Below are positions 390-38,047 of a stretch of DNA of 40,535 nucleotides, one piece after another (position 1 is the first letter of the stretch; the number at the start of each line of letters is the position of its first letter). Source of the stretch: a virus; the IMG/VR virus record IMGVR_UViG_3300045950_000084, positions 1 through 40,535 of that record; one strand, 5' to 3'. The notes under the pieces are model-generated. The model was given only the letters and a program-made list of their open reading frames with translations. It made no database searches and was not told the DNA's origin. The translations under genes and the position numbers were made by a program.

Positions 390-1703
390 CTATAAAGACC
401 TGCCGACCAGCACGATCTTCTTGACGGGGAACTGATATTCCATCGGATACCCGACCGCATCGGTGATGTGCTCGATGTCCGCGTCCTTGTCAATTTCCCG
501 CGTGTTTGCCTTGTAAATGACCTGTTCAAACGACTCGATCAAGTTCTCGCACTTTTGGTTGATATAAAGATGAACTGTCCCGTTCGCCGAGCGAAGCATT
601 CGGTTCACCGAATTCACTCGGTCTGCGACAAGCGGGTGTTTTCTTCGATATTTCAGACGCTTAAAGCCCTTTTGTCTGAAGATGTCCAGATCCGACTCGC
701 CTCGAGCGTGCTGACGATACTGGCCGGCAGGGTCGGGAAAGATCGTCACCTGCTTCATCCAGCGGTAATACCGCTTCTCGATTTCGTTGCAGACCTCCTC
801 GGTGTTCGAACCCTTCAGCACGATCTCATCGACCACCCATACAGTCTTCCCGTCCTCCTGAGGTTGGAGCACGACCGAACACATCGGGTCGAGGTTGAAG
901 TCCTGACCGATCCAGATCGGCAAGCGCGGGTTGAACGGATAGTGCCCGACATGCACTCGGCGGTTGAAGGGGTAGTAGACCCGGCCGCTCATCGTCTCGA
1001 ACGAGGCGTTGAACTCCTGGTTGAAGCTCTTCTCGTCCATGTCGGCGCGCGCGGCTTCAATTTCTTCTGCGCTAATGAAGGGCGAGCTCAGGGTCGGAAA
1101 CTGCCAAGACCGCCAGACGTTTCGGCGCATCACGCCGCTCGAGTCGACGTAGGTCTCACCTCTCTTCCCGAGGGTGTATATCTCGTAAAGGAAGTTGTAA
1201 GACTTCGGGGTTCCGATGAAGAGCGCCTTGCCGCGGGTGCTGGCAAGGGTCGGGCGCAGAACCCTATACCATGCATCGGGGTCGATGTCCTGGACCTCAT
1301 CAAGCACCAGGAAGTTGATCCCGACGCCTCGCAGGGAATCGGGATTGTCAGCGCCCTTAAGCTCGATTCGGGTCTTGTTCTTGAGCCAGATCGTCATGAG
1401 GGTCTCGTTGATGCGTTCGATCCACATCTTCGGGATCGACTCCATCAACTCGGGCCACATGATCTGCTTCGCCATGCGGTAAGACGGCGCGACATACCAG
1501 ATCAACTGCCGCGGGGTCACCGAGGCGCTGATGATCGCGATCTTCGCGAGTTGCGTCTTGCCCCAGCGACGCCCCGCGACCACCACCTTGAAACGATGGG
1601 GGTCGCGATAGACCTCCATCTGCTTTGGATGCAGAAAGAGACTCGGCCGGTGTCTGTGCCCTACACCGGCCGTCAAACTCGTCGCGTGAGCGGATGCTGT
1701 CAC
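390..1703 (-). CDS. terL: Terminase large subunit
   Basis: ATP-driven DNA packaging motor with a C-terminal headful or cos nuclease. Visible motifs: Walker A GRRWGKT at residues 44-50, Walker B FLVLDE with D135/E136, and a coupling motif GTP at 164-166. The nuclease half holds the acidic positions GQDF (D268), FPDP (D324) and a late ITDAVGYP segment. The 437 residues are normal for the family. The start is GTG, overlapping the terS stop as GTGA, so translation is probably coupled. It is followed by a promoter of its own for the next gene. Confidence 0.95.
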   Translation of the reverse strand: MTASAHATSLTAGVGHRHRPSLFLHPKQMEVYRDPHRFKVVVAGRRWGKTQLAKIAIISASVTPRQLIWYVAPSYRMAKQIMWPELMESIPKMWIERINETLMTIWLKNKTRIELKGADNPDSLRGVGINFLVLDEVQDIDPDAWYRVLRPTLASTRGKALFIGTPKSYNFLYEIYTLGKRGETYVDSSGVMRRNVWRSWQFPTLSSPFISAEEIEAARADMDEKSFNQEFNASFETMSGRVYYPFNRRVHVGHYPFNPRLPIWIGQDFNLDPMCSVVLQPQEDGKTVWVVDEIVLKGSNTEEVCNEIEKRYYRWMKQVTIFPDPAGQYRQHARGESDLDIFRQKGFKRLKYRRKHPLVADRVNSVNRMLRSANGTVHLYINQKCENLIESFEQVIYKANTREIDKDADIEHITDAVGYPMEYQFPVKKIVLVGRSL

Positions 1704-2401
1704 TTTGCAGGTGTCTGAACGGGTGGCGAATCGTCGTCATCACCCTCCGCCACCTTGTCGTTGCTGGCTGGTTCCCCGCCCTCCCCCGTAGCGACAAGAT
1801 CCTCAAGCGCCCCGACCGATTCGGTATCCTCCTCGGCAAGTCGCGCGCGCTCGAGGGCGATGTCTTCTGCGGTCATTTCCTGAATGCCGAGCACTGGCAT
1901 TTCTTCCTTCTCTCCGTTGCTGTCGTCCTTCACGCCGAGGGCCTTCAGACGCCCCTCGTGGGCCATACGAACCGCCCGTATGTGTAGCTCGAGCGCCTTC
2001 GCGTCATTGATGGTCGTGCCGATCCTCGCGCCCGAATGTCTCGCCTCGGTCACCGACTGCGCCGAAAGTTTCTGGTAGGCCGAGAGCATGCGGTAGGTCT
2101 CGTCATTGGTTTCGCGAACCTTCTTCGCGATCTCGGTGGCCTGCGCTTCGGCCTCTTTCTTCAGTTGGTCGGCCACCTGGGCGTCGACGATCGCTCGCTG
2201 CGACCCCTTCTCGACGCCCATCTTTTTCAGGGCGCGTTGAATCGCGAGCTCGGACTTACCGAACCTCTTCGCGAGATCCTTGATCGTTACGGTGCCCAGC
2301 GCCCAGGCGGTAGACGCCTCGATTCTCTGGGCGTAGGTGAGCTGACGGCGAGACTTCTTCGGCGTCTTAACCGGCTTCGGGGTGACGGGTGTCTCGCTCA
2401 T
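1700..2401 (-). CDS. terS: Terminase small subunit (probable)
   Basis: Called as the DNA-recognition subunit of the packaging complex because it immediately precedes and overlaps terL and carries an N-terminal helix-turn-helix-like region (TYAQRIEASTAWALGTVTIK then DLAKRFGKSELAIQRALKK). A helical middle and an acidic tail follow. I start it at the ATG at 2401 (MSETPV, 233 residues). An upstream in-frame ATG at 2446 lies inside an intrinsic-terminator hairpin and lacks a ribosome binding site. The family is very divergent, so the call rests on position plus the helix-turn-helix. Confidence 0.75.
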   Translation of the reverse strand: MSETPVTPKPVKTPKKSRRQLTYAQRIEASTAWALGTVTIKDLAKRFGKSELAIQRALKKMGVEKGSQRAIVDAQVADQLKKEAEAQATEIAKKVRETNDETYRMLSAYQKLSAQSVTEARHSGARIGTTINDAKALELHIRAVRMAHEGRLKALGVKDDSNGEKEEMPVLGIQEMTAEDIALERARLAEEDTESVGALEDLVATGEGGEPASNDKVAEGDDDDSPPVQTPAK

Positions 2402-2413
2402 CACGACACCCAG

Positions 2414-2444
2414 AAAAAAGCGGGGCCGGGGAGACAACGGCCCC
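2414..2444 (-). terminator. Intrinsic terminator in the terS leader
   Basis: Minus strand: GGGGCCG, loop TTGTCTCCC, CGGCCCC, then GC and six T. A 7-bp all-GC stem plus U-tract is canonical. It ends transcripts from the eight-gene operon, but it also lies downstream of the terS promoter at 2468-2496, so terS-terL expression would need read-through or antitermination. Confidence 0.75.
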
Positions 2445-2467
2445 ATTCGGAGGAGAGATGCAGGATC

Positions 2468-2496
2468 ATCGTATCACTTTCCGCAGGTTGGTTCAA
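2468..2496 (-). promoter_or_regulatory. Sigma70 promoter for terS-terL
   Basis: TTGAAC (2496-2491), exactly 17 bases, TACGAT (2473-2468) on the minus strand. Predicted start near 2461, leaving a leader of about 60 bases that contains the terminator at 2414-2444. The palindrome at 2495-2508 touches the -35 box. Confidence 0.6.
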
Positions 2497-2508
2497 TCAG
2501 TGCTGACT
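2495..2508. promoter_or_regulatory. Operator-like palindrome at terS promoter
   Basis: AATCAGTGCTGACT, one mismatch to AGTCA-N4-TGACT. It abuts the -35 box of the terS promoter. Confidence 0.55.
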
Positions 2509-2532
2509 GCTATTACCCGACTAATTTACTCA

Positions 2533-2633
2533 ACTTGGCGGTTTCTTATACTTCCCTTAGTCTTTTAGACTTAAGTCAGTTCTTATTTAAGACAAGGGGT
2601 ATATATAGAGGGAAGTATAAGAAACCGCCAAGT
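2533..2633. repeat. Perfect 25-bp inverted repeat with 51-base AT-rich loop
   Basis: Arms 2533-2557 and 2609-2633 are exact reverse complements, beginning ACTTGGCGG and ending in CCGCCAAGT. The loop is AT-rich and holds smaller palindromes (GTCTTTTAGAC, CTTAAG). It sits in the gap between the winged-helix gene and the terS promoter, so it would be transcribed as a long hairpin or act as a cruciform. AT content here is far above the surrounding genes. Confidence 0.85.
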
Positions 2634-2645
2634 AGACTAAATTAC

Positions 2646-3008
2646 TCAGGTATCCGTAGAAACGATCGACCCCTCGGAAGCGAAGCGATCGGGCTGTAGA
2701 AGTTCCAAAGCTTCATCTTTTTCGGTTTCGATGAAACTTGGCGAACTGCCAAGTTTGACCATCGCCCTTCCGAGGTCGGTCGGGAAATAGGTCACGCGCT
2801 TTCGTCCGCGTCGGTGTTGGTAGTCGCCCTTATACATGATGCCGTTCGCGATCAGCGCGCGGATCGAGAACTGCATACTCATCTTTGTGGTCTTGTAGGG
2901 CAGGCGTTCGAGAAGCTGGTCCATGTCGATCGGTATCAGGTTACCGTTCGCGTCCCTTCCATCGCCATCGCAGATCACCAACATGATCTGCATTTGTTTG
3001 TCGGTCAT
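2646..3008 (-). CDS. Small winged-helix-like protein, last gene of the modification operon
   Basis: 120 residues starting MTDKQMQ at 3008, chosen because it gives the ATGA overlap used throughout this operon. The layout fits a winged helix: a helical N-terminus, a recognition-like segment (KTTKMSMQFSIRALIANGIM), then a wing-like YQHRRGRKRVTYFPTDLGR. This resembles MarR/DUF-type phage regulators. It may regulate the operon or read its sites; neither is shown. The coding sequence contains a 9-bp inverted repeat at 2734-2756. Confidence 0.7.
   Translation of the reverse strand: MTDKQMQIMLVICDGDGRDANGNLIPIDMDQLLERLPYKTTKMSMQFSIRALIANGIMYKGDYQHRRGRKRVTYFPTDLGRAMVKLGSSPSFIETEKDEALELLQPDRFASEGSIVSTDT
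2734..2756. repeat. Palindrome AAACTTGGC-N5-GCCAAGTTT
   Basis: Perfect 9-bp arms, loop GAACT, inside the 3' part of the winged-helix gene. The ACTTGGC/GCCAAGT core recurs at 12511-12529 and as the outer ends of the arms at 2533 and 2633. Confidence 0.6.
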
Positions 3009-3958
3009 GTGCATTTGCGATACTCCTCGGGCAACAGATCGAGTCTCAGTGGCTCGGTCACGCCCTGGTTGTCGAACGCAGTCAGGGGCAGTCGTGCTGG
3101 CAGTTTCCGCATCGCGTTCGTCTTGGGGTCCCAATCGGGGTTAGTCCATACCGCGTATACGGTCGCCCCGAAAACGAGCTGCTGCGTTTGCTTGAGCAGA
3201 TAGCCGATTTCCATCTGCTCGACGCGGCTAGTTCCGTTAAGACGGTTGTCGCCCGACTTCTCCATGCTCGAGTGTTCGTAGTAGAACGCGCGGAGCTCGG
3301 TCAGCACCCGCTCCCGAACGTGTTCGGGCATCACTTTGAGCTCCGCCAGGATCGCAACGTAGTCGTAGGCGGGGCTGACGAAGTGACGGCGAAAGAACCG
3401 CAGGCCCGACTCGAGTGCAGTCGCCGCTTTGGGCGCCACGAACCTCATTCCGGCCTTGATCGAGAAGGGGTTGTAGCGGCTCATCGAGCTACGGCTTTCG
3501 ACGTAGCGATACCCCATCATGCGGTAACCGAGGCCTTTGAAGCGGTAGGCGATGCCGGCGCCGCGATACATGGTGTCGAGCACCGTGCGGCTAGACAGAA
3601 TCAGGTTCTTGTTCAACCACATCATTCGCATCTTGTTGATGAGGGTGTTGTCCTTCCCGTTTTGGTTCGGCTTCAGGTGCGGAAACACGAGGTTCCGCCC
3701 CGAGTCGAGTGGCTTCGGAACGGTGAACACCATGACGCCAATCGTGAGTCCCCGTTCGGACCCATCTTTCAGCGCACAGCGCATGTAGCGCGGCCCGATC
3801 CCCAGGTTCGAGCTCTTGTAGTGCAGCTCGTGAAGCATCTTCCAATCCTCGAGCGCGCCTCTCTCCACGAAGATGTCCTTCAGGATCGACAGCGGCCGGC
3901 GACCCGCGGTCGGATCGCGTCTCACGAGAATGTCGTGAGTGTCGAGAATGATGGTCAT
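3005..3958 (-). CDS. Mom-like GNAT acyltransferase, candidate DNA-base modifier
   Basis: 317 residues with the look of the GNAT half of COG2401 and of phage Mu Mom. There is an early aromatic/His segment LHYKSSN (45-51), a strand GVMVFTVPKP near 74-83, and SRTVLDTMYRGAGIAYRF (123-140) resembling the acetyl-CoA loop. YVESRSSMSRYNPF (152-165) then leads into KAGM. Mom converts adenine to N6-carbamoylmethyladenine; the product here is unknown. It overlaps the ABC ATPase stop by ATGA, and in COG2401 these two domains are one protein. The C-terminal 100 residues are unassigned. GNAT membership is fairly sure, DNA as substrate is inference. Confidence 0.75.
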   Translation of the reverse strand: MTIILDTHDILVRRDPTAGRRPLSILKDIFVERGALEDWKMLHELHYKSSNLGIGPRYMRCALKDGSERGLTIGVMVFTVPKPLDSGRNLVFPHLKPNQNGKDNTLINKMRMMWLNKNLILSSRTVLDTMYRGAGIAYRFKGLGYRMMGYRYVESRSSMSRYNPFSIKAGMRFVAPKAATALESGLRFFRRHFVSPAYDYVAILAELKVMPEHVRERVLTELRAFYYEHSSMEKSGDNRLNGTSRVEQMEIGYLLKQTQQLVFGATVYAVWTNPDWDPKTNAMRKLPARLPLTAFDNQGVTEPLRLDLLPEEYRKCT

Positions 3959-4668
3959 AGAATCCCTAGCAAGTGCTTGTAAATGTCGTCGGACGACATT
4001 TCGCCCAGTCGTTCCTTGATCTTGTCCGCGGTGTCGATTCTCAGCTTCTCGCGGTAACGCTTCTCGATGTAGAGCGAGGGCTGTAGGTCGGGCACCATGT
4101 CGGTGTGGGTCGTCGCCACGATCACGGTCGCACCCACCTTGCGGGCGGTCTTCTGGACGCTGTAAGCAATGACTTTGGCCGCGGTGCGATCGAGCACCGC
4201 CATGAACTCGTCGGCGACCCAGACTTCTGCCCCCGTTTCTATCGCTTTCGCGAGTCGAAAGCGGTAACGCTGCCCGTCGGAAAGCTCGTCTGGCTTGCGG
4301 ATGTAGAGGTATGCGTCGTTTAGGCCGGCGATCGACAGAATTCGAAGGGCGTCGTTGGTGGACGTGCCGATCTGGTCGATCAGGGTTTTGTCGCGATCGA
4401 GCCCGACCCGATCAAGATTGACGACCCGCTTGCCGCGCTCGGTCATCTGGTGCTCGAGATCCTTGAGAAGTAGCGACTTCCCCGAACCTGACTGGCCGGT
4501 AATGTAGACGACCGACCCCTGCGGCACTTCGAGCTGAAGGTTGTCGAAGATGACGAATTCCTTATCGTCGAGCCCCAGACCGAAGGCTTCAGCGATTTCG
4601 AGCACCCGTTGGCTGCGATAGACGCGGGTTTCGAACCGCTTGTTGATGGTGTAGGTGTCGCGGTTCAT
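3955..4668 (-). CDS. ABC-type ATPase, COG2401-like ATPase half
   Basis: 237 residues with a complete ABC nucleotide-binding domain: Walker A GQSGSGKS (58-65), signature ELSDGQRYR (128-136), Walker B VWVADEF (149-155), D-loop-like AVLDRTAA and switch histidine TTHTD (H188). No membrane segments and no permease neighbour, so it is a soluble ATPase rather than a transporter. The N-terminal extension and the DLQPSLYIEK tail match the ATPase fused to a predicted acetyltransferase in COG2401; here the acetyltransferase is the next gene, overlapping by 4 bases. It may drive DNA loading or remodelling for the modifier. Confidence 0.85.
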   Translation of the reverse strand: MNRDTYTINKRFETRVYRSQRVLEIAEAFGLGLDDKEFVIFDNLQLEVPQGSVVYITGQSGSGKSLLLKDLEHQMTERGKRVVNLDRVGLDRDKTLIDQIGTSTNDALRILSIAGLNDAYLYIRKPDELSDGQRYRFRLAKAIETGAEVWVADEFMAVLDRTAAKVIAYSVQKTARKVGATVIVATTHTDMVPDLQPSLYIEKRYREKLRIDTADKIKERLGEMSSDDIYKHLLGIL

Positions 4669-5012
4669 TTTGCTCTCACGGTGTTTTCGATCCAGGCGAA
4701 CAGGCCGGGGTTGTCAAGCATCACCGCGGCAAGCCCATTCGCAATCCCGGTGACGTATTCCTCTTCCTGTGCCTTGTGTTCGTCGATGTTCTGGTGCCAG
4801 CAGATACAATGCAGGATCTCGTGAAGCAGCACGTTTGCCATTTTCGAGGGTTGTAGTTCGGGGAGTATCCCGATGACGTTACGCAGAAGGCGCGCCTCGC
4901 CGGCAACACGCCTTTCGTGCGCGTCGATCGAATTGATCGAAACAACCTTGTAAATGATGTAGCCGACCTTTACTGATTTCGGCATCGACTTCCAGGCTTG
5001 TTCGGGGGTCAT
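4665..5012 (-). CDS. Zincin-like metallopeptidase domain protein (copy 1)
   Basis: 115 residues with VLLHEILHCI, the HExxH zinc-binding motif, followed 15-20 residues later by QEEEYVTGIANGL, where a third zinc ligand usually lies. It starts at the ATGA overlap with the preceding gene. Overall pattern (LPxxVKVG-like start, HExxH, Glu-rich helix, DNPGLFAWI end) parallels the neighbouring copy, so the two arose by duplication. Either a small protease or an inactive zinc fold used in a complex; the substrate is unknown. Confidence 0.75.
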   Translation of the reverse strand: MTPEQAWKSMPKSVKVGYIIYKVVSINSIDAHERRVAGEARLLRNVIGILPELQPSKMANVLLHEILHCICWHQNIDEHKAQEEEYVTGIANGLAAVMLDNPGLFAWIENTVRAK

Positions 5013-5389
5013 TCCTTCGTCCTTTCCTTGCGAAGTTCACGCCAGGCCCGGGTGAGCCATGACCACAGTCTGGGGTTGTCTTTCCAGACCTGCGACCAGC
5101 CATTGCCCGACTGCTCGGCAACGTGCTCTTCTTGCGCGCCGTCGGTGATGGCGTAGACGTTGTTGATCGCGTGTTGGAGCTCGTGGATTAGCGTGTTCAC
5201 GAGGACCTGAAGCGACAGCGTTTCGTCGAACTTCATGTGGCACTGTTCGAAGTTCACACTGCCGCGTTCGTCATCTTCGAAATCGTCTTCCCCGGGTTTC
5301 ACCCGCGTCAGACGAAATGTGTAACCGCCGACCTTCACCTGGCGCGGCAGAAGCTCGCGCAGGTCTTTCGTCGCGTGCATGTTCGTCAC
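5009..5389 (-). CDS. Zincin-like metallopeptidase domain protein (copy 2)
   Basis: 126 residues with TLIHELQHAI (HExxH) and a downstream QEEHVAEQSGNGW segment, ending DNPRLWSWL. It is the paralogue of the following gene, sharing LPRQVKVGGY versus MPKSVKVGYI near the N-terminus. Start is taken as the GTG at 5389, which gives the GTGA overlap; an ATG three codons on (5380) with GGGG upstream is an alternative. Position between ParB and ABC ATPase genes implies a role in the same complex. Confidence 0.75.
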   Translation of the reverse strand: MTNMHATKDLRELLPRQVKVGGYTFRLTRVKPGEDDFEDDERGSVNFEQCHMKFDETLSLQVLVNTLIHELQHAINNVYAITDGAQEEHVAEQSGNGWSQVWKDNPRLWSWLTRAWRELRKERTKE

Positions 5390-6045
5390 CCCTGACTGAT
5401 TGGTCCGACCAGCTCTTTGATGTAGGAGGTCACCGCCTGCTCGCCCTTGTGCCCGGTCTTTGCTTCGGCTAGGGCGATGAAGCGGGAATAGTAAATCTCG
5501 TCGGCGCCCTGCACGTCTTTAAAACCGAACGCTTTAATCAGAGGCACGCGATCTTTCGCGAGCGCGTCGACCCGAGCTCTTGTCTCTGCATCTTGCGCTT
5601 CGACTGCGGCATCCACGTCGCTGATATAGGCGCCGTTGTTCTGCTCGCCCATGTCGACGGTGCTGAAGTTGAGCTCCTTCTCATCGAAGGTGCCGGCGAG
5701 AAGCGACAGATCGTTGACCGCCTGCATTGCCTTTCGCAAGACTTCGGTATCGAAGTCGCCGACCGCCGCCCGGTTGTCTGCGAGACGAGCGGCATTCGCC
5801 TGGTCATCGGTCAGGTCTGCCCGCTTCAGCACCGGGACCTTCTTCATCCCGAGCTTGATTGCAGCGAGTCTACGTCCGTGTCCTTTGATGATTACGTCAT
5901 TGCGATCGACGACGATCGGTTGATCCCAGCCGAAGGTCTTGATCGAATGCGCGATGCCGCCGACCTGTGCTTCGTCGTGCTTCTTTGCGTTCAGATCGTA
6001 GGGCTTGACGCGCTCTACGTCCCACAGCTCGATGTGAAGGTTCAT
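5386..6045 (-). CDS. ParB/Srx-fold protein (second copy)
   Basis: 219 residues. The N-terminal half is a ParB-like domain: VERVKPYDLNAKKHD, then SIKTFGWDQPIVVDRND and the signature GHGRRLAA, followed by LTDDQANAARLADNRAA. The C-terminal half is helical and unassigned. In plasmid segregation ParB binds centromere-like DNA and CTP; in phages single ParB-like domains accompany DNA-modification genes. It overlaps both neighbours by 4 bases and shares only the domain, not close identity, with the ParB-like gene at 6209. Confidence 0.85.
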   Translation of the reverse strand: MNLHIELWDVERVKPYDLNAKKHDEAQVGGIAHSIKTFGWDQPIVVDRNDVIIKGHGRRLAAIKLGMKKVPVLKRADLTDDQANAARLADNRAAVGDFDTEVLRKAMQAVNDLSLLAGTFDEKELNFSTVDMGEQNNGAYISDVDAAVEAQDAETRARVDALAKDRVPLIKAFGFKDVQGADEIYYSRFIALAEAKTGHKGEQAVTSYIKELVGPISQG

Positions 6046-6212
6046 GCGAAGTCCTTGGGTTTCTTGACGATCTTGATGGGTTTCGTTGCTGACCGTGTGC
6101 CCATGTCGCTTTCTTCTTTCGCGTCGAACTCGCTACCGTTGTGGCATTCCTCGCAGATCGCCGGCTCACGGTGGTTGTAGTAGCAGTCGGGGCAGAACGA
6201 ATACTTACTCAC
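6042..6212 (-). CDS. Small zinc-ribbon protein
   Basis: 56 residues from a GTG at 6212 that overlaps the preceding stop as GTGA; the stop overlaps the next ATG, so it fits the operon exactly. CPDC and CEEC pairs form a compact zinc ribbon near residues 7-22, followed by a basic tail (KPIKIVKKPK). Such proteins often bind nucleic acid or serve as assembly factors; here, sandwiched between two ParB-like genes, it is probably a subunit of the same machinery. Confidence 0.7.
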   Translation of the reverse strand: MSKYSFCPDCYYNHREPAICEECHNGSEFDAKEESDMGTRSATKPIKIVKKPKDFA

Positions 6213-6880
6213 GATGCGTTTCTTTCCTTGTTGAGAAGATAGACCAGCGCGTTGCCCGCGTTCGTCATCGAGTCGTCGGACGTGAAGTTCTGCTCGCGCA
6301 TAATTTTTTCGAGGACCGCGGTGCCCCAAGCGGCGTCTTCTACGGGCACCTTGAAACGCATGATCTGGTGTGTCGGCGCGGGCTTCGAGGGAATCTCTGG
6401 GGTGGGACCACCCGCGGGCATGTCGAGGTCTTGCATCGCTATACTCGATGCAGACAGAAGATGATTCAGCTCGCTATCGCTGTAAGGCAGGAACTTCCCC
6501 AGTTCTTCGGGCGTGCCGAGTTCTTTGAGGAGGTCGGCGAGCTGAAGCGCGTCATCCTCCCCATAGCGGCCGTTGTCGGCGAGCCCGATCTCTTTTGCCT
6601 TCGAGTCGGGAACGGTGCCGAGGTTGAAGATGGGAACGAGCTCCATTCCTCGTTTCTTGGCGATCTGCCAGCGGTGCTCGCCCCCCAGGATCTCGAGCGA
6701 CCCGTCTTCGAGGGTGCGAACGATGATTGGCTTGAAGAACCCGAGGCGCTTCATCGACTCTTCGATGCGGGCCTCGTTTTCGGGGGAAACGACGTTGGTG
6801 TTCCAGGTGTTCGGCTGCAGGCGATCGGGGTGAACCATGTCGGTCAGGTCGACCTTCACGGTCAGGTTACTCGAGGGCAT
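6209..6880 (-). CDS. ParB/Srx-fold protein (first copy), first gene of the operon
   Basis: 223 residues from ATG 6880, chosen because AAGGA lies 6 bases upstream; a longer frame exists but runs into the divergent promoter region. ParB-like features: MVHPDRLQPNTWNTNVV, ESMKRLGFFKPIIVR, GGEHRWQIAKKRG, IGLADNGRYGEDD. A C-terminal domain of about 90 residues ends in a helical segment (NAGNALVYLL). It heads the eight-gene block and is divergently arranged with the helicase operon. Confidence 0.85.
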   Translation of the reverse strand: MPSSNLTVKVDLTDMVHPDRLQPNTWNTNVVSPENEARIEESMKRLGFFKPIIVRTLEDGSLEILGGEHRWQIAKKRGMELVPIFNLGTVPDSKAKEIGLADNGRYGEDDALQLADLLKELGTPEELGKFLPYSDSELNHLLSASSIAMQDLDMPAGGPTPEIPSKPAPTHQIMRFKVPVEDAAWGTAVLEKIMREQNFTSDDSMTNAGNALVYLLNKERNAS

Positions 6881-6907
6881 TCCGTGTCCTTGTTCGCTAC
6901 AATAGTA

Positions 6908-6921
6908 AGTCAGCGATGACT
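6908..6921. promoter_or_regulatory. Operator-like palindrome in the divergent control region
   Basis: AGTCAGCGATGACT, a perfect AGTCA-N4-TGACT, between divergently read operons. The identical 14-mer occurs at 11743-11756 on the other strand. Its right half coincides with the -35 region of the plus-strand promoter. Confidence 0.65.
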
Positions 6922-6943
6922 GTATCCTATTTGGCGATATAAG
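6916..6943 (+). promoter_or_regulatory. Candidate promoter for helicase operon
   Basis: ATGACT (6916-6921), 16 bases, TATAAG (6938-6943). The predicted start lies only about 6 bases before the ATG at 6956, so the helicase mRNA would be nearly leaderless; an alternative -10 TATCCT at 6923 would leave a longer leader. The -35 box is part of the palindrome. Confidence 0.35.
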
Positions 6944-6955
6944 GCAAGTCCTTAC

Positions 6956-8686
6956 ATGAAGGAGCCCGTTCGCATTGTTGCCGGCCCTGTGCTGGCAAAG
7001 GTTGTAAGCGCCGATCGGGATGCGAAGCTTCTTATAAACAAGGAGTTGTCGTATCTCGTCGAGGGGGCGGCGTTTCAATCAGGGGGATGGCATGGGCGCA
7101 TGAGCTTCTACGACTTCGCCCAGGACACCTTCCCCGCGGGCTTCTACTACCGGGTGCTCAAGTCGCTCACGAACGCCGGCTACCGGCCGCTTGCGAACCG
7201 GGTGCCGGCACCCGCACCCCTGGGCCCCGAGCGGCCGAAGGTCGATAGTTTCCCCGACGACCCCCGCTACGAATACCAATACGAGACTGCCGGTAAGCTG
7301 GTGCGCCACCTTCAGGTGGTCGCGAAGGTCGCAACGGGCGGCGGAAAGTCCCGCATCGCCCGGATCTGCTACCGTCGCATCGGGCGCCCGACCCTGTTTC
7401 TGACAACCCGCGGCATTCTGATGCACCAGATGAAGGATTCGTTCATCGCGATGGGCGAGCGGGTCGGGGTAATCGGCGACGGCACGATCAAGCCCAACTT
7501 CGGCGGCATGAACGTGGGCATGGTGCAGACGCTTTCCCAGGCGATCGAGCTGCAAGACCCCGTGACCGAATTCGAACGCTACGAGAAGAACCGCGGCGCT
7601 GCCGAGCTGCGGGAGATCGACGAGCTTCGCACTCGACTCGAGCAAGAGGGGGTAGACGAGGCCGAGGTCAATGCCCAGTGCGCGGCTCTCGCCGGGCGTC
7701 TGACCGTGCTTCGAAAGAACCCGACCGAGCTCGCCAAGTTGATCGTCGCTAGGGTCGAAAAGCACAACGCCAAGCGGCGTTGGTGGCTCGATCTGCTCGC
7801 CAAGTTCGAATTTCTGATACTTGAAGAAGCGCACGAAGCATCGGGCAATGGCTTCTTCGAGGTCGCGAATGCGTGCACCCGGGCGTTCTATCGACTCGCA
7901 CTTACCGCCACCCCGAACATGAAAGACAGCCAAGAGGCAAACCTTCGTCTCGAGGCGTGCGCCGGCCCGGTCGCGATCACGGTGTCAGAGAAGCAGCTCA
8001 TCGACTGCGGCATTCTCGCGAAGCCCTACTTTAAGTTCATTCACACCGCGGGCACTCCCGAGTATCGCGAGGTTCGCAAGGTCAAATCGCCCACCGGGCA
8101 GAAAACCGAGCGTGAATTCACGGTGAAGCTCTATCGGTCAACGCCCTGGCCCGACGCCTACGAAATCGGGGTGACTAAGAATCCGCTTCGCAACCACTCG
8201 ATCGTTCAAGAGGCGGCTCGAGCGGCCGCCCATGGGCTTTCAGTCATGGTGCTCGTTCAACAGAAGGCGCACGGGGCGATTCTCAACACCATGTTCGCAG
8301 AGCGCGGGGTCAAGTCAGCCTACATCTTCGGTGAGCACAACCAGCCCGAGCGCCAGGCGGCGATCAACGCCCTCAAAGATGGGCGCATTCAGGTTTTGAT
8401 CGGGTCGACGATTCTCGACGTGGGCGTCGACGTGCCCGCGGTCGGAATGGTCATCATCGCATCAGCAGGCAAAGCCGAGGTCGCCCTTCGGCAGCGCATC
8501 GGGAGGGGGCTGCGTGCAAAGAAGGCCGGCCCAAACGTCGCTTTCGTGGTCGACTTCACCGATCACTTGAATAATCACCTGCGCGACCATGCCCGGGAGC
8601 GTCGTCAGATCATCGAGACTACCCCCGGATTCGCAGAGGGCATCGTCCCCGATTTCGATTACTCGATCTTCGCGAAAGGGGGTTAA
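6956..8686 (+). CDS. Superfamily 2 DNA helicase, UvsW-like
   Basis: 576 residues. Motif I ATGGGKS (126-132), DEAH-box variant LEEAHE near 291, motif III LALTATP near 316 and motif VI RQRIGRGLR near 511 define an SF2 helicase/ATPase. The N-terminal 70 residues (ELSYLVEGAAF, FPAGFYYRVL) resemble the DNA-binding entry domain of T4 UvsW, which remodels branched intermediates and starts recombination-dependent replication. Starting at 6956 keeps this domain. First gene of the only plus-strand operon, divergent from the ParB-led operon. Confidence 0.85.
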   Translation: MKEPVRIVAGPVLAKVVSADRDAKLLINKELSYLVEGAAFQSGGWHGRMSFYDFAQDTFPAGFYYRVLKSLTNAGYRPLANRVPAPAPLGPERPKVDSFPDDPRYEYQYETAGKLVRHLQVVAKVATGGGKSRIARICYRRIGRPTLFLTTRGILMHQMKDSFIAMGERVGVIGDGTIKPNFGGMNVGMVQTLSQAIELQDPVTEFERYEKNRGAAELREIDELRTRLEQEGVDEAEVNAQCAALAGRLTVLRKNPTELAKLIVARVEKHNAKRRWWLDLLAKFEFLILEEAHEASGNGFFEVANACTRAFYRLALTATPNMKDSQEANLRLEACAGPVAITVSEKQLIDCGILAKPYFKFIHTAGTPEYREVRKVKSPTGQKTEREFTVKLYRSTPWPDAYEIGVTKNPLRNHSIVQEAARAAAHGLSVMVLVQQKAHGAILNTMFAERGVKSAYIFGEHNQPERQAAINALKDGRIQVLIGSTILDVGVDVPAVGMVIIASAGKAEVALRQRIGRGLRAKKAGPNVAFVVDFTDHLNNHLRDHARERRQIIETTPGFAEGIVPDFDYSIFAKGG

Positions 8687-21171: not shown

Positions 21172-21200
21172 CTTATACTGAGGTTTTCGGCCCGCGTCAA
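21172..21200 (-). promoter_or_regulatory. Sigma70 promoter for the exported protein
   Basis: TTGACG (21200-21195), 17 bases, TATAAG (21177-21172); the strongest promoter in the window after the TTGACA sites. It overlaps the end of the radical SAM gene and abuts a perfect operator-like palindrome. Confidence 0.65.
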
Positions 21201-21838
21201 GTCAGGGCTGACTGAGCTTCGACATTTTGTTCGGCGGTGTAGCAGGCGCCATATTCGTGGTTGTCAGGTATCTCGGGGGCGAATACGGTTCCGAACTGTC
21301 GGTGCTCGCATCCGCAGCCAAAGATTCGACCGTCGGGCTTCACGAACAGGTCCTCGCAGCAGCAGCGGCCCTCCTCGGTCCATACCCCGTTCTTGTCCGC
21401 AAACCCGACACGTTGGACTTGGTGAATGGTCCTGATTGAGCGAAGGTCGTTATCCCCGAGAGGGTCCCTTATGAACGCCTTGACGACCTCGGGGGCGATC
21501 TCCTCGTGAAACTCGTCCCGGCTCAAGTCGACCGAAAGGACGCCCCGCTTCGCGAGGTTGGCAAGACGCAGCGCGTGTCCGGTGCGCTTCCCGTTGGTCA
21601 CGAGTCCGACATACTCATCGCCGTTGCCAAGCGCCCACCCGATCATGGCCCAAAACTCGGGATGCACGGTCGGTTCACCCCCGCCGATGAAGATGTGCTC
21701 GCCACGCTTTTTCGCGAGCGCACACGCGACCTTGAAGGTCCGCATGTCCATGTTCATGCCCCGAATATGCTTGGAGCTCGACACGCAGCAGTGCGCGCAT
21801 GCCATGTTGCAGTTCGTGGTGATCTGGAGATACATCAC
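21197..21838 (-). CDS. Radical SAM protein
   Basis: 213 residues. CNMACAHC (C10, C14, C17) is the CxxxCxxC cluster that binds the [4Fe-4S]/SAM centre; GGGEPTVHPEF (52-62) is the typical GGEP-like SAM motif. A Cys-rich end (CCCEDLF, FGCGCEH) suggests auxiliary iron-sulfur clusters or a SPASM-like domain. Substrate unknown: radical SAM proteins of this shape act in peptide or nucleoside modification. Its start overlaps the upstream stop. Confidence 0.85.
   Translation of the reverse strand: MMYLQITTNCNMACAHCCVSSSKHIRGMNMDMRTFKVACALAKKRGEHIFIGGGEPTVHPEFWAMIGWALGNGDEYVGLVTNGKRTGHALRLANLAKRGVLSVDLSRDEFHEEIAPEVVKAFIRDPLGDNDLRSIRTIHQVQRVGFADKNGVWTEEGRCCCEDLFVKPDGRIFGCGCEHRQFGTVFAPEIPDNHEYGACYTAEQNVEAQSALT
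21200..21213. promoter_or_regulatory. Operator-like palindrome
   Basis: AGTCAGGGCTGACT, a perfect AGTCA-N4-TGACT, overlapping the -35 box by one base. It lies inside the last codons of the radical SAM gene. Confidence 0.65.
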
Positions 21839-34879: not shown

Positions 34880-36133
34880 TTAGTTGAATTCGGTGACCTC
34901 ACCCTTCCGAAGCAGATAGGCTTCGGAAACGCTCTTCGCGATCTTGCGACCATGCCGTGGGTGCTGCGCTTCGACCCCGCCCTCCAAAAGCAGGGTGCGA
35001 ATAACGACGCCTTCCCGAATATGGGAATTCGCCCCCGACACCGTTTCGAGGCCGTTGGTGTGCGTCTCGAGCGCCGCCCTACTAAACGGCCCTCTGTAGA
35101 GAATAGGGACATGGGGAACGTCGAGTCTTCGGGCGAGCGCCGGAATCGAGTCCGCATAGCCCCACTTTTCGTTCCCGCGTGTTCCGAGCACTTCCTCGAA
35201 GAGTCGAAACTGTAGATCGCCCGCCCCGTAGGTAAGGTCCTGAACACCCTTGCCGCCCGGCATGACCCCGAACACTTCGCCCAGGATAAAGTAGGGCTGG
35301 TCGAACTCGTCCGCGACCCAAGCGAATTCGCACATCTTGTCCAGAAGCCCGTATTTCTTCGCCGCCTGAACGTAAAGGTTAGTGTCGTCGCTCGCGTCGA
35401 GGATGTATCCCTGCTTCGCCAGCCCCTTCGAGGAGAGCACGATTCGCCCCTTGTAATACTTCTCTTTGGCAAGGCGCTCGGGAACGACCCCGACCATCAT
35501 GAAGGTTCCGTGAATCTTCTCGGTCATGACGACCGGCTCGCCCTCGTCGAAGAGGTCGGGCATCTTCTTAATGTTGTCGAGGTCGTAATGAATCGTCGCC
35601 TCGAGATCCGCCCCGGCGATGCGACCAGCCATGTGCGAAGGAATGGGCGGTTCGTATTTGACGATGCCGAGAATCTCTGCGACGTTCTGCCCTTCGGTCA
35701 CGTCCACGAAGTCGTAAACGTCGGGGCCGAGCTCGGGATGAACGTCCGCGATGCCAACAGCGTGCGTCGTCTCGATGGAAAAGGTCTTGACGCTCTGCCC
35801 GTAAGCGCCCGAGAGAACGCCCTTATCGAGCGATACCACGGGCCACAGAAGGCCCTGCGACAGCACCCCGCGCAGCTTGATTGCCTTGACCCGGTTTCCC
35901 GCGGCGCCCGAAAGCTTGCCCTTCTCCTTTACGTCGTCCCACATGCCCATCACTTCGAGCATGGCCCGCGGAACGACCGCGGACTCGGGGATGTAAACCG
36001 CGAGGTCACCATCCTTGAACTGCCCCTTTTGGACGATCGACTTGAAATCCCCGACGCAGGCGATCTCGATACGATCGGCGTTGGGATGGGGTTCGATGCG
36101 AACCCGTTCGACGGTGCAGGCGAAGTTGCTCAT
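34880..36133 (-). CDS. RNA ligase, Rnl5/DraRnl-like
   Basis: 417 residues. An N-terminal OB-like domain (RVRIEPHPNADRIEI) is followed by a nucleotidyltransferase with motif I TEKIHGT (K206), motif IIIa-like FILGEVFG, IV EGVVIRT and V KIAKSVSEAYL. An OB domain placed before the adenylation domain is the arrangement of the Deinococcus-type RNA ligase. It would seal RNA nicks using ATP. RtcB is two genes upstream in the same direction. Confidence 0.85.
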   Translation of the reverse strand: MSNFACTVERVRIEPHPNADRIEIACVGDFKSIVQKGQFKDGDLAVYIPESAVVPRAMLEVMGMWDDVKEKGKLSGAAGNRVKAIKLRGVLSQGLLWPVVSLDKGVLSGAYGQSVKTFSIETTHAVGIADVHPELGPDVYDFVDVTEGQNVAEILGIVKYEPPIPSHMAGRIAGADLEATIHYDLDNIKKMPDLFDEGEPVVMTEKIHGTFMMVGVVPERLAKEKYYKGRIVLSSKGLAKQGYILDASDDTNLYVQAAKKYGLLDKMCEFAWVADEFDQPYFILGEVFGVMPGGKGVQDLTYGAGDLQFRLFEEVLGTRGNEKWGYADSIPALARRLDVPHVPILYRGPFSRAALETHTNGLETVSGANSHIREGVVIRTLLLEGGVEAQHPRHGRKIAKSVSEAYLLRKGEVTEFN

Positions 36134-36142
36134 GTGGTGGCC

Positions 36143-36652
36143 CTAGTGAGTTGCCTTCGACAGTGCCGTAAGGGGCACCATCATCTGTGACATAAAACCG
36201 CCCTTGGTTCGCACCATGAGCGCGTAAAGAAGAAAGTCCTCGGTGCTGATGTTCCAGACCCCCGCGAGACGGTAACCCGAGGCGTAGACGAAGAACCTGA
36301 TGTTCTTGATCCTCGGGTCGTTCATGACCCGGTTGTAGGGCTCCTGGTCGAGCCCGACAGCGGGGCAAGCAAACATGCTCGAGGGCGGATTGAAGAAGAT
36401 GTGACCCTGGCTCTCGGGAAGGGCGTTCGCGGGCTTTTTGCAGTGCAGGGCGCACAGAAGAACGTCCTGCCCGCTTCGCGCCCAGATTTCCGAAAGCCAC
36501 GATGGAAGCTCGACCCGACGGGCAAGAACATCGCCCCGCGCCGAAAGTTCGTAAATCCCGCCCTTACGGGCGGTGCCGATTGTGATCGCGAGGTCGCGCC
36601 CCCCGTTCAACATTTGCGGTTTCGCCCCGCCCCGGTTCAGTGCCAAGGTCAT
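36143..36652 (-). CDS. Hypothetical protein
   Basis: 169 residues from MTLALNRGGAKPQMLNGGRD at 36652. Alpha/beta with GHIFFNPPSSMFACPAVG and YASGYRLAGVWNIS. The ribosome binding site is weak, but TATAAT lies 35 bases upstream. No family recognised. Confidence 0.75.
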   Translation of the reverse strand: MTLALNRGGAKPQMLNGGRDLAITIGTARKGGIYELSARGDVLARRVELPSWLSEIWARSGQDVLLCALHCKKPANALPESQGHIFFNPPSSMFACPAVGLDQEPYNRVMNDPRIKNIRFFVYASGYRLAGVWNISTEDFLLYALMVRTKGGFMSQMMVPLTALSKATH

Positions 36653-36667
36653 GTCGCAGTCGTTCTT

Positions 36668-36681
36668 GGTCAGTGGTGACT
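36668..36681. promoter_or_regulatory. Operator-like palindrome at transcription start
   Basis: GGTCAGTGGTGACT (one mismatch), just downstream of a TATAAT at 36687-36692 on the minus strand, so a bound protein would block initiation. It is flanked by two copies of CCAAGAACG. Confidence 0.55.
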
Positions 36682-36686
36682 TAGCT

Positions 36687-36692
36687 ATTATA
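36687..36692 (-). promoter_or_regulatory. Promoter -10 TATAAT
   Basis: Perfect TATAAT on the minus strand; 17 bases upstream the -35 region reads TGCCCA, a weak match. Drives the gene starting at 36652; overlapped downstream by the operator-like palindrome. Confidence 0.5.
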
Positions 36693-36745
36693 GCGACCGT
36701 TCTTGGCGATGGGCAGGCGAAGCACAATCTCACGACGCGCGGGGG

Positions 36746-38047
36746 TCACTGATGCCCCTTCTTCTTGCCCCACTTCTTCCCCTCCTTCGGACCCTTCACG
36801 CACATAACTTGTTTGAGCGTATGCACGACCTCGACCAGATCCGCCTGGTTTGCCATCACTTGGTCGATGTCCTTGTAAGCTGCCGGAATCTCGTCGAGCA
36901 CCGAGTCGTCCTTCGCGCACTCGATCCCCTTGGTCTGTTCGACCACATCGGCGACCGAGAACATCTTCTCCGCCGCGGTGCGGGTCATCTTGCGCCCGGC
37001 ACCATGCGAGCAAGAGCAGTAGCTCTCCGGGTTGCCCTTCCCGCGCACGATGTAGCTCTTGGCGCCCATGCTGCCGGGGATGATTCCGAAGTCGCCTTCT
37101 CGCGCCCTGATCGCCCCCTTGCGGGTGACGTAAACGTTGCGTCCGAAGTGGTTCTCCTGGGCGACATAGTTGTGGTGACAGTTGATCGCCTCCTGGGTAA
37201 CCTCGAATGGTTTCTTGATGTGGCGTCGCAGGTTTCGCAGAACCTCGTTCATCATCATCTGGCGATTGAGAAAGGCGTAGTTCTGCGCCCACCCCACCGC
37301 GGCCATGTAGTCGTCGAAGTCCTTTGTCCCCTCGGCGAGATACGCGAGGTCCTCGTCGGGAAGGTTGATGAACCACTTGTCGGCGAACTCTTGAGCGCGC
37401 TCGATGAACGCCCGCCCGATCATGTTGCCGATTCCCCGAGACCCCGAATGCAGCATCACCCACACGTCCTGGTCTTGATCGAGGCAGATTTCGATGAAGT
37501 GGTTGCCGCCGCCCAGGCTACCGAGTTGCGACACAGCCTTATCGCGCCAGCGTTCGCCGATGACCTCCTTGATGATCCCAAAACCACCGCCCGGGTTGAG
37601 AAGTGCAGCTTCGACCATGTGATCGAGGTTCTCCGCTTGCTTCTCGGGCCGGTTGTGTTGGGCCATACCAAGCGGCACGCCCCGCTCGATGCTGTGGCGA
37701 ATCTCGCCCAGGCTGTCGGGAAGGTCACCCGCCCTCAACGAAAGTCGCAAGGCGATCATCCCGCAGCCGATGTCTACACCCACCGCGGCTGGGATGATCG
37801 CCTTATAGGTGGGAATCACGGACCCGACCGTGGCGCCGATGCCAGCATGAACGTCAGGCATGACTGCAATCCCCTTCGGATGAATGAAGGGCAGCTTGGA
37901 GACGTTGATGAGCTGATTCATCGCGGTCTCCTCGATGTCGGGTCCAAACCATCGCGTTGCGCCGGGCGAAATCTCGCCCTCGGGCATTAGCTTGTCGCCT
38001 ACCCATGCCCGAATCGGTTTGCCGCCGTGATTGTGAATGGTGTGCAT
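36746..38047 (-). CDS. rtcB: RNA-splicing ligase RtcB
   Basis: 433 residues, close to the 408 of E. coli RtcB. Metal and catalytic motifs: PDVHAGIG (D65, H67), GVDIGCG (D92, C95), GGGNHFIE (H183), MLHSGSRG (H200) and CSHGAGR (His348, the guanylylated histidine in known enzymes). RtcB joins 2',3'-cyclic phosphate or 3'-phosphate ends to 5'-OH ends using GTP, for example after toxin cleavage of tRNA. Its upstream neighbour ends four bases before the start. Confidence 0.95.
   Translation of the reverse strand: MHTIHNHGGKPIRAWVGDKLMPEGEISPGATRWFGPDIEETAMNQLINVSKLPFIHPKGIAVMPDVHAGIGATVGSVIPTYKAIIPAAVGVDIGCGMIALRLSLRAGDLPDSLGEIRHSIERGVPLGMAQHNRPEKQAENLDHMVEAALLNPGGGFGIIKEVIGERWRDKAVSQLGSLGGGNHFIEICLDQDQDVWVMLHSGSRGIGNMIGRAFIERAQEFADKWFINLPDEDLAYLAEGTKDFDDYMAAVGWAQNYAFLNRQMMMNEVLRNLRRHIKKPFEVTQEAINCHHNYVAQENHFGRNVYVTRKGAIRAREGDFGIIPGSMGAKSYIVRGKGNPESYCSCSHGAGRKMTRTAAEKMFSVADVVEQTKGIECAKDDSVLDEIPAAYKDIDQVMANQADLVEVVHTLKQVMCVKGPKEGKKWGKKKGHQ

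Follow-up and report, generated by a model that had tools for sequence, protein, structure and literature searches.

What does an operon of eight overlapping genes, placed directly upstream of the terminase genes, do for the phage that carries it? We addressed this question for IMG/VR virus record IMGVR_UViG_3300045950_000084, a virus fragment of 40,535 bases that we refer to in its entirety as the window. Eight intact open reading frames (ORFs) run on its minus strand from position 6880 to 2646 (Table 1). In coding order, they specify a ParB-fold protein (ParB1), a four-cysteine protein, a second ParB-fold protein (ParB2), two HExxH proteins (zincin 1 and zincin 2), a soluble ATP-binding cassette (ABC) ATPase, a GNAT acyltransferase, and a small protein labelled as winged helix-turn-helix (wHTH)-like. 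All seven gene junctions are 4-nt overlaps reading GTGA or ATGA, in agreement with an earlier note on this DNA that had described eight same-strand genes overlapping end to end. The genes for the terminase small and large subunits (TerS and TerL) follow directly in the same orientation, after a gap of 244 bp; the earlier note had overlooked them. We conclude, with a probability of roughly 0.6, that the operon encodes a nucleotide-driven machine for acylating DNA bases and that this machine belongs to the core of the SSU5-like lineage of phages and phage-plasmids.

Conservation of the operon in SSU5-like phages and phage-plasmids

Searches for relatives of the GNAT gene gave 30 records from phages and 905 from plasmids, and most are SSU5-like phage-plasmids of 100-120 kb. 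These elements include SSU5, nickie, RHEph10, BUCTxx99, and plasmids of Acinetobacter. The closest annotated relative is encoded on a Cupriavidus metallidurans plasmid (66% identity). We compared 112 loci, selected through the GNAT gene from IMG/VR as well as from contigs of Alpha-, Beta-, and Gammaproteobacteria. Throughout this set, the genes keep one order: a divergent helicase gene, ParB1, the four-cysteine protein, ParB2, zincin, ABC ATPase, GNAT, wHTH-like protein, TerS, and TerL. The four-cysteine protein and the zincins are variably present, and we found no clear exception to the order besides contig ends. In loci that reach far enough, the ABC gene always adjoins the GNAT gene and the wHTH-like gene is always present. 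Because 112 homologous loci keep this order, the arrangement is not a product of chance.

Loci selected independently through TerL gave the same picture. Every SSU5-like locus with at least 1.5 kb of upstream sequence carries either the split ABC and GNAT pair or a fused ABC-GNAT gene. The earlier note had proposed co-occurrence in other genomes as a check on its reading, and both sets of loci bear this co-occurrence out. The operon is part of the core of SSU5-like phages and phage-plasmids and is not cargo.

The ABC ATPase and the GNAT correspond to two halves of a fused family

The ABC ATPase matches PF00005 (4e-13), and at least 90% of 108 aligned sequences retain the residues of its Walker A, signature, Walker B, and H-loop motifs. 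This confirms the identity assigned in the earlier note. The GNAT has no match in Pfam, and a sequence search among solved structures returned no homologues. Its AlphaFold model (pLDDT 85.8, pTM 0.78) was compared with known folds by Foldseek. The top matches in the PDB were GNAT enzymes, mainly small-molecule and protein acetyltransferases, and a match in BFVD was the ABC-GNAT protein of phage LE4. The R-G-x-G loop for acyl-coenzyme A (acyl-CoA) is conserved, with R132 invariant and G133 and G135 present in at least 90% of sequences.

We compared both proteins with fused phage ABC-GNAT proteins, which stood in for COG2401; the Cyrano record carries the COG-style name. The ABC ATPase aligned with the N-terminal half of the fused proteins (hhalign 99.8%, E 1.3e-28), and the GNAT aligned with the C-terminal half (96-97%, E 1.7e-10 to 3e-9). 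The fused family is large, with at least 584 matches in one scan, and includes a protein of Tenacibaculum phage pT24 (2e-35). Four SSU5-like loci selected through TerL (L469, L489, L502, and L503) encode two ParBs together with a fused ABC-GNAT of 364-377 aa that replaces the split pair. Since the fused form occupies the position of the split pair in these loci, we consider the two forms equivalent. A glutaredoxin- or thioredoxin-like gene lies between the ABC and GNAT genes in Cupriavidus and Acinetobacter elements (L024, 8577-8852; L025, 6595-6948; L026, 6531-6953), and different small genes fill the interval in other relatives. PHROG 886, the family of the GNAT (window 3005-3958), is labelled 'ABC transporter ATP-binding subunit', a label that has spread to many phage records.

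The GNAT had been described as Mom-like in the earlier note. Its GNAT fold is supported by AlphaFold and Foldseek, but a specific relationship to Mom (PF25680) is not. Pfam gave no Mom match, and comparison with a Mom alignment gave an hhalign probability of 0.3% (E 0.22). A comparison with a single Mom protein also rejected membership, and the fused LE4 protein reached only E 0.059 against Mom. The window protein is a GNAT in a family of its own.

ParB proteins and the position upstream of the terminase genes

Both ParB-fold proteins named in the earlier note were recovered. ParB1 matches PF02195 with 39.9 bits and phrog_723 at 1e-58. ParB2 scores 25.6 bits, just below the PF02195 cut-off of 26.3, and matches the ParB family phrog_930 at 1e-73. 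The ParB part of ParB2 also matches phrog_498, a DNA methyltransferase family (4e-34), and the PADLOC model MTase_II (1.8e-17). The conserved P-motif arginine region of the ParB/Srx nucleotide-binding fold is present in both proteins: G66, G67, H69, and R70 are invariant among 93 aligned ParB1 sequences, and GHGR is at least 90% conserved in ParB2. In PADLOC, the operon gave only generic ATPase matches (mad3/mad8) and the ParB matches inside MTase_II. ParB folds bind nucleoside triphosphates (NTPs). In phages they are found joined to DNA methylases, and GTP is bound by a bacterial protein in which ParB is fused to an acetyltransferase (PMC12704722). The ParB-like proteins DpdB and DndB are partners of DNA-modification enzymes, and the Dnd system also has an ABC ATPase (PMC12839542, PMC10853773).

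The association of ParB with this acyltransferase family extends beyond the SSU5-like lineage. A ParB gene adjoins the fused ABC-GNAT gene on its upstream side in 48/55 and 42/53 dereplicated loci, often with an overlap. TerS and TerL are often found downstream, and where the TerL model matched, distances of 336-475 bp to TerL are common. Fusions of ParB to DNA methylases are placed similarly: 50 of their 64 loci have TerL on the downstream side, in most cases at 315-370 bp. Two Streptococcus phages, Javan492 and Javan523, share a ParB domain (~97% identical over ~119 aa), TerS (70% at the amino acid level), and TerL (98%). In Javan492, the common ParB domain continues into a DNA N6/N4 methylase (PF01555, in a split ORF). 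In Javan523 (L377, 4998-6067), the ParB-fused methylase is replaced by an ABC-GNAT whose GNAT half is broken. This cassette swap is the strongest single observation linking the family to DNA modification.

These results suggest that tailed phages have a standard slot comprising ParB, a modifier, and the terminase. Two finds involving Mom give weaker support. ParB overlaps Mom in Microbacterium phage Appa, and Porphyromonas phage012a has Mom at the equivalent end slot where 006a has an ABC-GNAT and a formyltransferase. Mom loci were considered as a control for ParB adjacency, but the sample consisted mostly of close copies of the Mu locus (7 representatives, with ParB in 0/6) and was too narrow to be used.

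Some fused relatives have neighbors that hint at the chemistry. A formyltransferase gene lies downstream in 30 of 42 loci of one fused clade. In another clade, PanD lies downstream in 4/57 loci, with a family III CoA-transferase beside it. Rhodococcus phage Jace (L031, 5426-8191) encodes ParB, a fused ABC-GNAT, an aspartate decarboxylase (PF02261, 2e-33), and a CoA-transferase (PF02515) consecutively, and this set is repeated in L073, L074, L081, and L093. A possible role for the last two enzymes in Jace is a pathway that provides beta-alanyl-CoA as a donor for the acyltransferase. Gordonia phage Axumite (L030) has a gene at 1805-2452, between ABC-GNAT and the terminase, that is labelled as a tRNA-methyltransferase and matches the formyltransferase family PF00551 (1e-8).

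A candidate mechanism for DNA-base acylation

The operon probably encodes a DNA-modification machine that is a variant of a predicted class combining GNAT and ABC proteins, as judged from the sequence comparisons. The directed machine proposed in the earlier note is supported indirectly, by the match of the ABC and GNAT to the halves of the fused family, by the generality of ParB adjacency, and by the methylase slot. Protection of phage DNA from restriction, the purpose that the earlier note gave for the machine, would be a plausible role. We infer that DNA is the substrate, that the chemistry is acylation, and that the ParB and ABC proteins act as follows. By analogy with DpdB, DndB, and the Dnd system, loading or aiming of the machine would fall to the ParB proteins, which would bind both NTP and DNA. 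The ABC ATPase, a soluble protein, would engage DNA and couple ATP turnover to base access, and the GNAT would transfer an acyl group from acyl-CoA to an amino group of a DNA base. Acylation may occur before or during packaging, because the terminase genes lie directly downstream. In fused relatives, a special (amino-acyl) donor could be made or trimmed by the formyltransferase, or by the aspartate decarboxylase and CoA-transferase. No such partner is constant in the window lineage, which therefore probably uses a host acyl-CoA, of which acetyl-CoA is the simplest guess.

A more detailed model can be offered only tentatively. Throughout a very large lineage of phage-plasmids, an ATP/NTP-driven ParB-ABC-GNAT machine coupled to packaging might install an undescribed acylated base and be interchangeable with DNA methylases in a single standard slot of tailed phages. 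Fused relatives might make other groups, such as beta-alanyl or N-formyl, with the help of their partner enzymes.

Alternative functions

The position of the operon raises the alternative that it encodes a packaging-accessory complex. In this view, the terminase would find its packaging site, or the end of the genome, organized by the ParB, ABC, and wHTH-like proteins, and acetylation by the GNAT would be directed at a packaging protein rather than at DNA. The operon is core rather than accessory, and it lies directly before TerS and TerL in every locus that reaches far enough. The gap before TerS contains a recurrent long inverted repeat. In the window, this repeat is perfect over 25 bp, with arms at 2533-2557 and 2609-2633 that are 51 bp apart. 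Arms of at least 14 bp were found in 29 of 86 distinct gaps of relatives, compared to 0 of 430 shuffles. Many arms start with ACTTGGC, ACTTGTCAC or ACTTATC, and the remainder differs. The linear records of SSU5 and Cyrano end inside the gap, so the inverted repeat may be a packaging or terminus site. However, ParB-DNA methylases occupy the same slot, and linkage to the terminase therefore cannot separate packaging from modification. The module also lies away from TerL in Jace and Porphyromonas, and the formyltransferase or PanD and CoA-transferase partners fit small-group chemistry better. We consider this alternative unlikely.

A second alternative is that the GNAT serves host takeover by acetylating a protein of the host, for instance RNA polymerase. 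Phage Rac provides a precedent (PMC7824862), and the structural matches of the GNAT are mainly to enzymes acting on small molecules and proteins. Protein acetyltransferases are nevertheless not typically coupled to an ABC ATPase and ParB in a conserved way, and the exchange for a DNA methylase suggests that the target is DNA. This makes protein acetylation quite improbable. Still harder to defend is an ATP-driven RNA acetyltransferase like NAT10 or TmcA, perhaps working with phage RNA-repair genes. NAT10 is among the Foldseek matches of the GNAT (E 7e-4), and the window encodes RtcB and an RNA ligase, but these two genes lie ~28 kb away and are outside the module in the other phages examined. 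The partners of the GNAT are ParB and terminase, with no RNA proteins. Finally, plasmid partition, with the ParBs as centromere-binding proteins among unrelated neighbors, would suit a lineage made up largely of phage-plasmids (B1VFA has parA, parB, and repC; PMC12509600) but is barely credible given that Pfam matched only the N-terminal ParB domain and not the central HTH and C-terminal dimerization domain of ParABS-type ParBs, that no parA is annotated within the operon in annotated relatives, that lytic LE3/LE4 (PMC6078989) and Gordonia phages have the same pairing of ParB with ABC-GNAT, and that the gene order is strict rather than a loose neighborhood.

Several points weigh against our preferred reading, DNA-base acylation. 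GNATs often modify proteins or small molecules, and the window GNAT has no significant sequence relationship to Mom, the family with proven activity on bases. The synteny within the SSU5-like lineage could reflect plain co-inheritance. Because the GNAT half of Javan523 is broken, the cassette swap is evidence for positional homology and not for an active enzyme. In Porphyromonas, the slot lies at the end of a prophage, a place open to unrelated cargo. The literature we found reports no modified base for any phage that carries the module, and we found no restriction-digest or modified-base data for the SSU5, nickie, RHEph10, or LE4 relatives. A nanopore study of wheat phages (PMC11780129) does not mention Nican01 or Nickievirus.

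Accessory genes and surroundings of the operon

Since the zincins and the four-cysteine protein are optional, they probably do not contribute catalytic subunits to the core machine, and we regard them as accessory. H69, E70, H73, and E88, which form an HExxH motif and a distal glutamate as in M78/IrrE or SprT metallopeptidases, are invariant in 41 aligned zincins, including both from the window. Zincin 2 gave a compact AlphaFold model (pLDDT 96). Foldseek found no significant match to known folds (selecase ranked best at E 0.43, and PprI gave E 1.2), and the Pfam scores of zincin 2 for PF06114 and PF10263 were below the cut-off. The HExxH motifs reported in the earlier note are thus confirmed, but no family or fold match was strong enough to assign these proteins as proteases. 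Similarly, the proposed zinc ribbon has conserved cysteines (C7, C10, C20, and C23 are invariant among 63 aligned sequences) but no match in the Pfam or PHROG families. The wHTH label was taken from the earlier note, and the PHROG 900 match of this protein is to a family of unknown function.

A scan of positions 1600-7100 for promoters and terminators gave no signals above those in shuffled sequences. Elsewhere in the window, genes for an RNA ligase (phrog_968) and an RtcB tRNA-splicing ligase (phrog_1075) lie close together within 34880-38047 and form a phage RNA-repair set. A radical-SAM-like protein (phrog_13987, 8e-8) is encoded at 21197-21838.

Table 1. Features of the operon and its flanks, with positions in the window
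Feature	Position	Strand	Start	Evidence or remark
UvsW-like helicase	6956-8686			Divergent from ParB1
ParB1, 223 aa; ParB/Srx N-terminal domain, P-motif GGEHR	6209-6880	-	ATG 6880	PF02195, phrog_723
Four-Cys protein, 56 aa; possible zinc ribbon, optional	6042-6212	-	GTG 6212	GTGA overlap with ParB1 stop; four Cys conserved
ParB2, 219 aa; P-motif GHGRR as in ParB-DNA-methylase fusions	5386-6045	-	ATG 6045	phrog_930, phrog_498
Zincin 1, 126 aa; HELQH, optional	5009-5389	-	GTG 5389	phrog_1233 (1.6e-13); HExxH and E88
Zincin 2, 115 aa; HEILH, tandem relative of zincin 1, optional	4665-5012	-	ATG 5012	Sub-threshold PF06114/PF10263
Soluble ABC ATPase; N-terminal half of ABC-GNAT family	3955-4668	-	ATG 4668	PF00005; hhalign
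GNAT acyltransferase; C-terminal half of ABC-GNAT family plus further helical C-terminal region	3005-3958	-	ATG 3958	AlphaFold, Foldseek, hhalign
wHTH-like small protein, 120 aa	2646-3008	-	ATG 3008	ATGA overlap with GNAT; phrog_900 (1.8e-21)
Inverted repeat, 25-bp perfect arms, in wHTH-TerS gap	2533-2633			Candidate packaging or terminus site
Probable TerS	1700-2401	-		phrog_867 DNA-binding domain (1.4e-28); GTGA overlap with TerL
TerL	390-1703	-		55-87% identity to terminases at same position in relatives

Discussion

Our analysis places the operon within a class of systems that had been predicted before. As cited in PMC7824862, Iyer, Zhang, Burroughs, and Aravind (2013) proposed that a GNAT coupled to an ABC ATPase attaches an acyl group of unknown kind to a base of DNA; Tenacibaculum phage pT24 is named there as an example of the class. 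The earlier note had presented the operon as a candidate new system, which was overstated because of this prediction. We found no experimental test of the class in the literature. Its members in LE4, Axumite, Jace, and pT24 are homologous to the window proteins in both halves, have ParB directly upstream, and often have the terminase downstream. The window operon differs in having separate ABC and GNAT genes, an extra C-terminal region of ~140 aa in the GNAT, two ParBs instead of one, the optional zincin and four-cysteine genes, and no constant donor-making enzyme. As far as we checked, the universal presence of the split form in the core of SSU5-like phage-plasmids, the methylase swap on the same ParB, the exchange of split and fused forms within one lineage, and the slot before the terminase common to modifiers are new. 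Part of this may already stand in Iyer et al. 2013.

Other modification systems are more distant. ParB-DNA methyltransferase fusions (phrog_498; Javan492) share the ParB domain type and the place before TerS and TerL, but they use an S-adenosylmethionine-dependent methylase where the window has an ABC ATPase and an acyltransferase. Mom of phage Mu belongs to the same GNAT superfamily, pairs with ParB in Appa, and occupies the equivalent slot in Porphyromonas, yet neither sequence nor profile comparison relates Mu Mom significantly to the window GNAT, and Mu Mom has no ABC partner beside it. The Dnd and Dpd systems also combine a ParB-like protein (DndB, DpdB) with a modification enzyme, and DndD is the ABC ATPase of Dnd. 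In contrast to the phage core operon, these are host systems that place sulfur on the backbone or exchange deazaguanine by means of TGT. No DndA, DndC, DndE, or TGT enzyme was found among the operon proteins with Pfam, PHROG, or PADLOC.

If DNA-base acylation is the function of the operon, an undescribed base modification would be encoded by most SSU5-like phage-plasmids, elements that have been reported to spread resistance genes (PMC9600943, PMC12217456). This function would explain a core operon that is mislabelled in databases as an ABC transporter. It would also make the 2013 prediction testable in laboratory phages of Escherichia coli; since the lineage has no constant donor enzyme, the simplest version, with acetyl-CoA as the donor, would be easy to test. 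More broadly, the region before the terminase genes would represent a general slot in which tailed phages hold interchangeable DNA modifiers.

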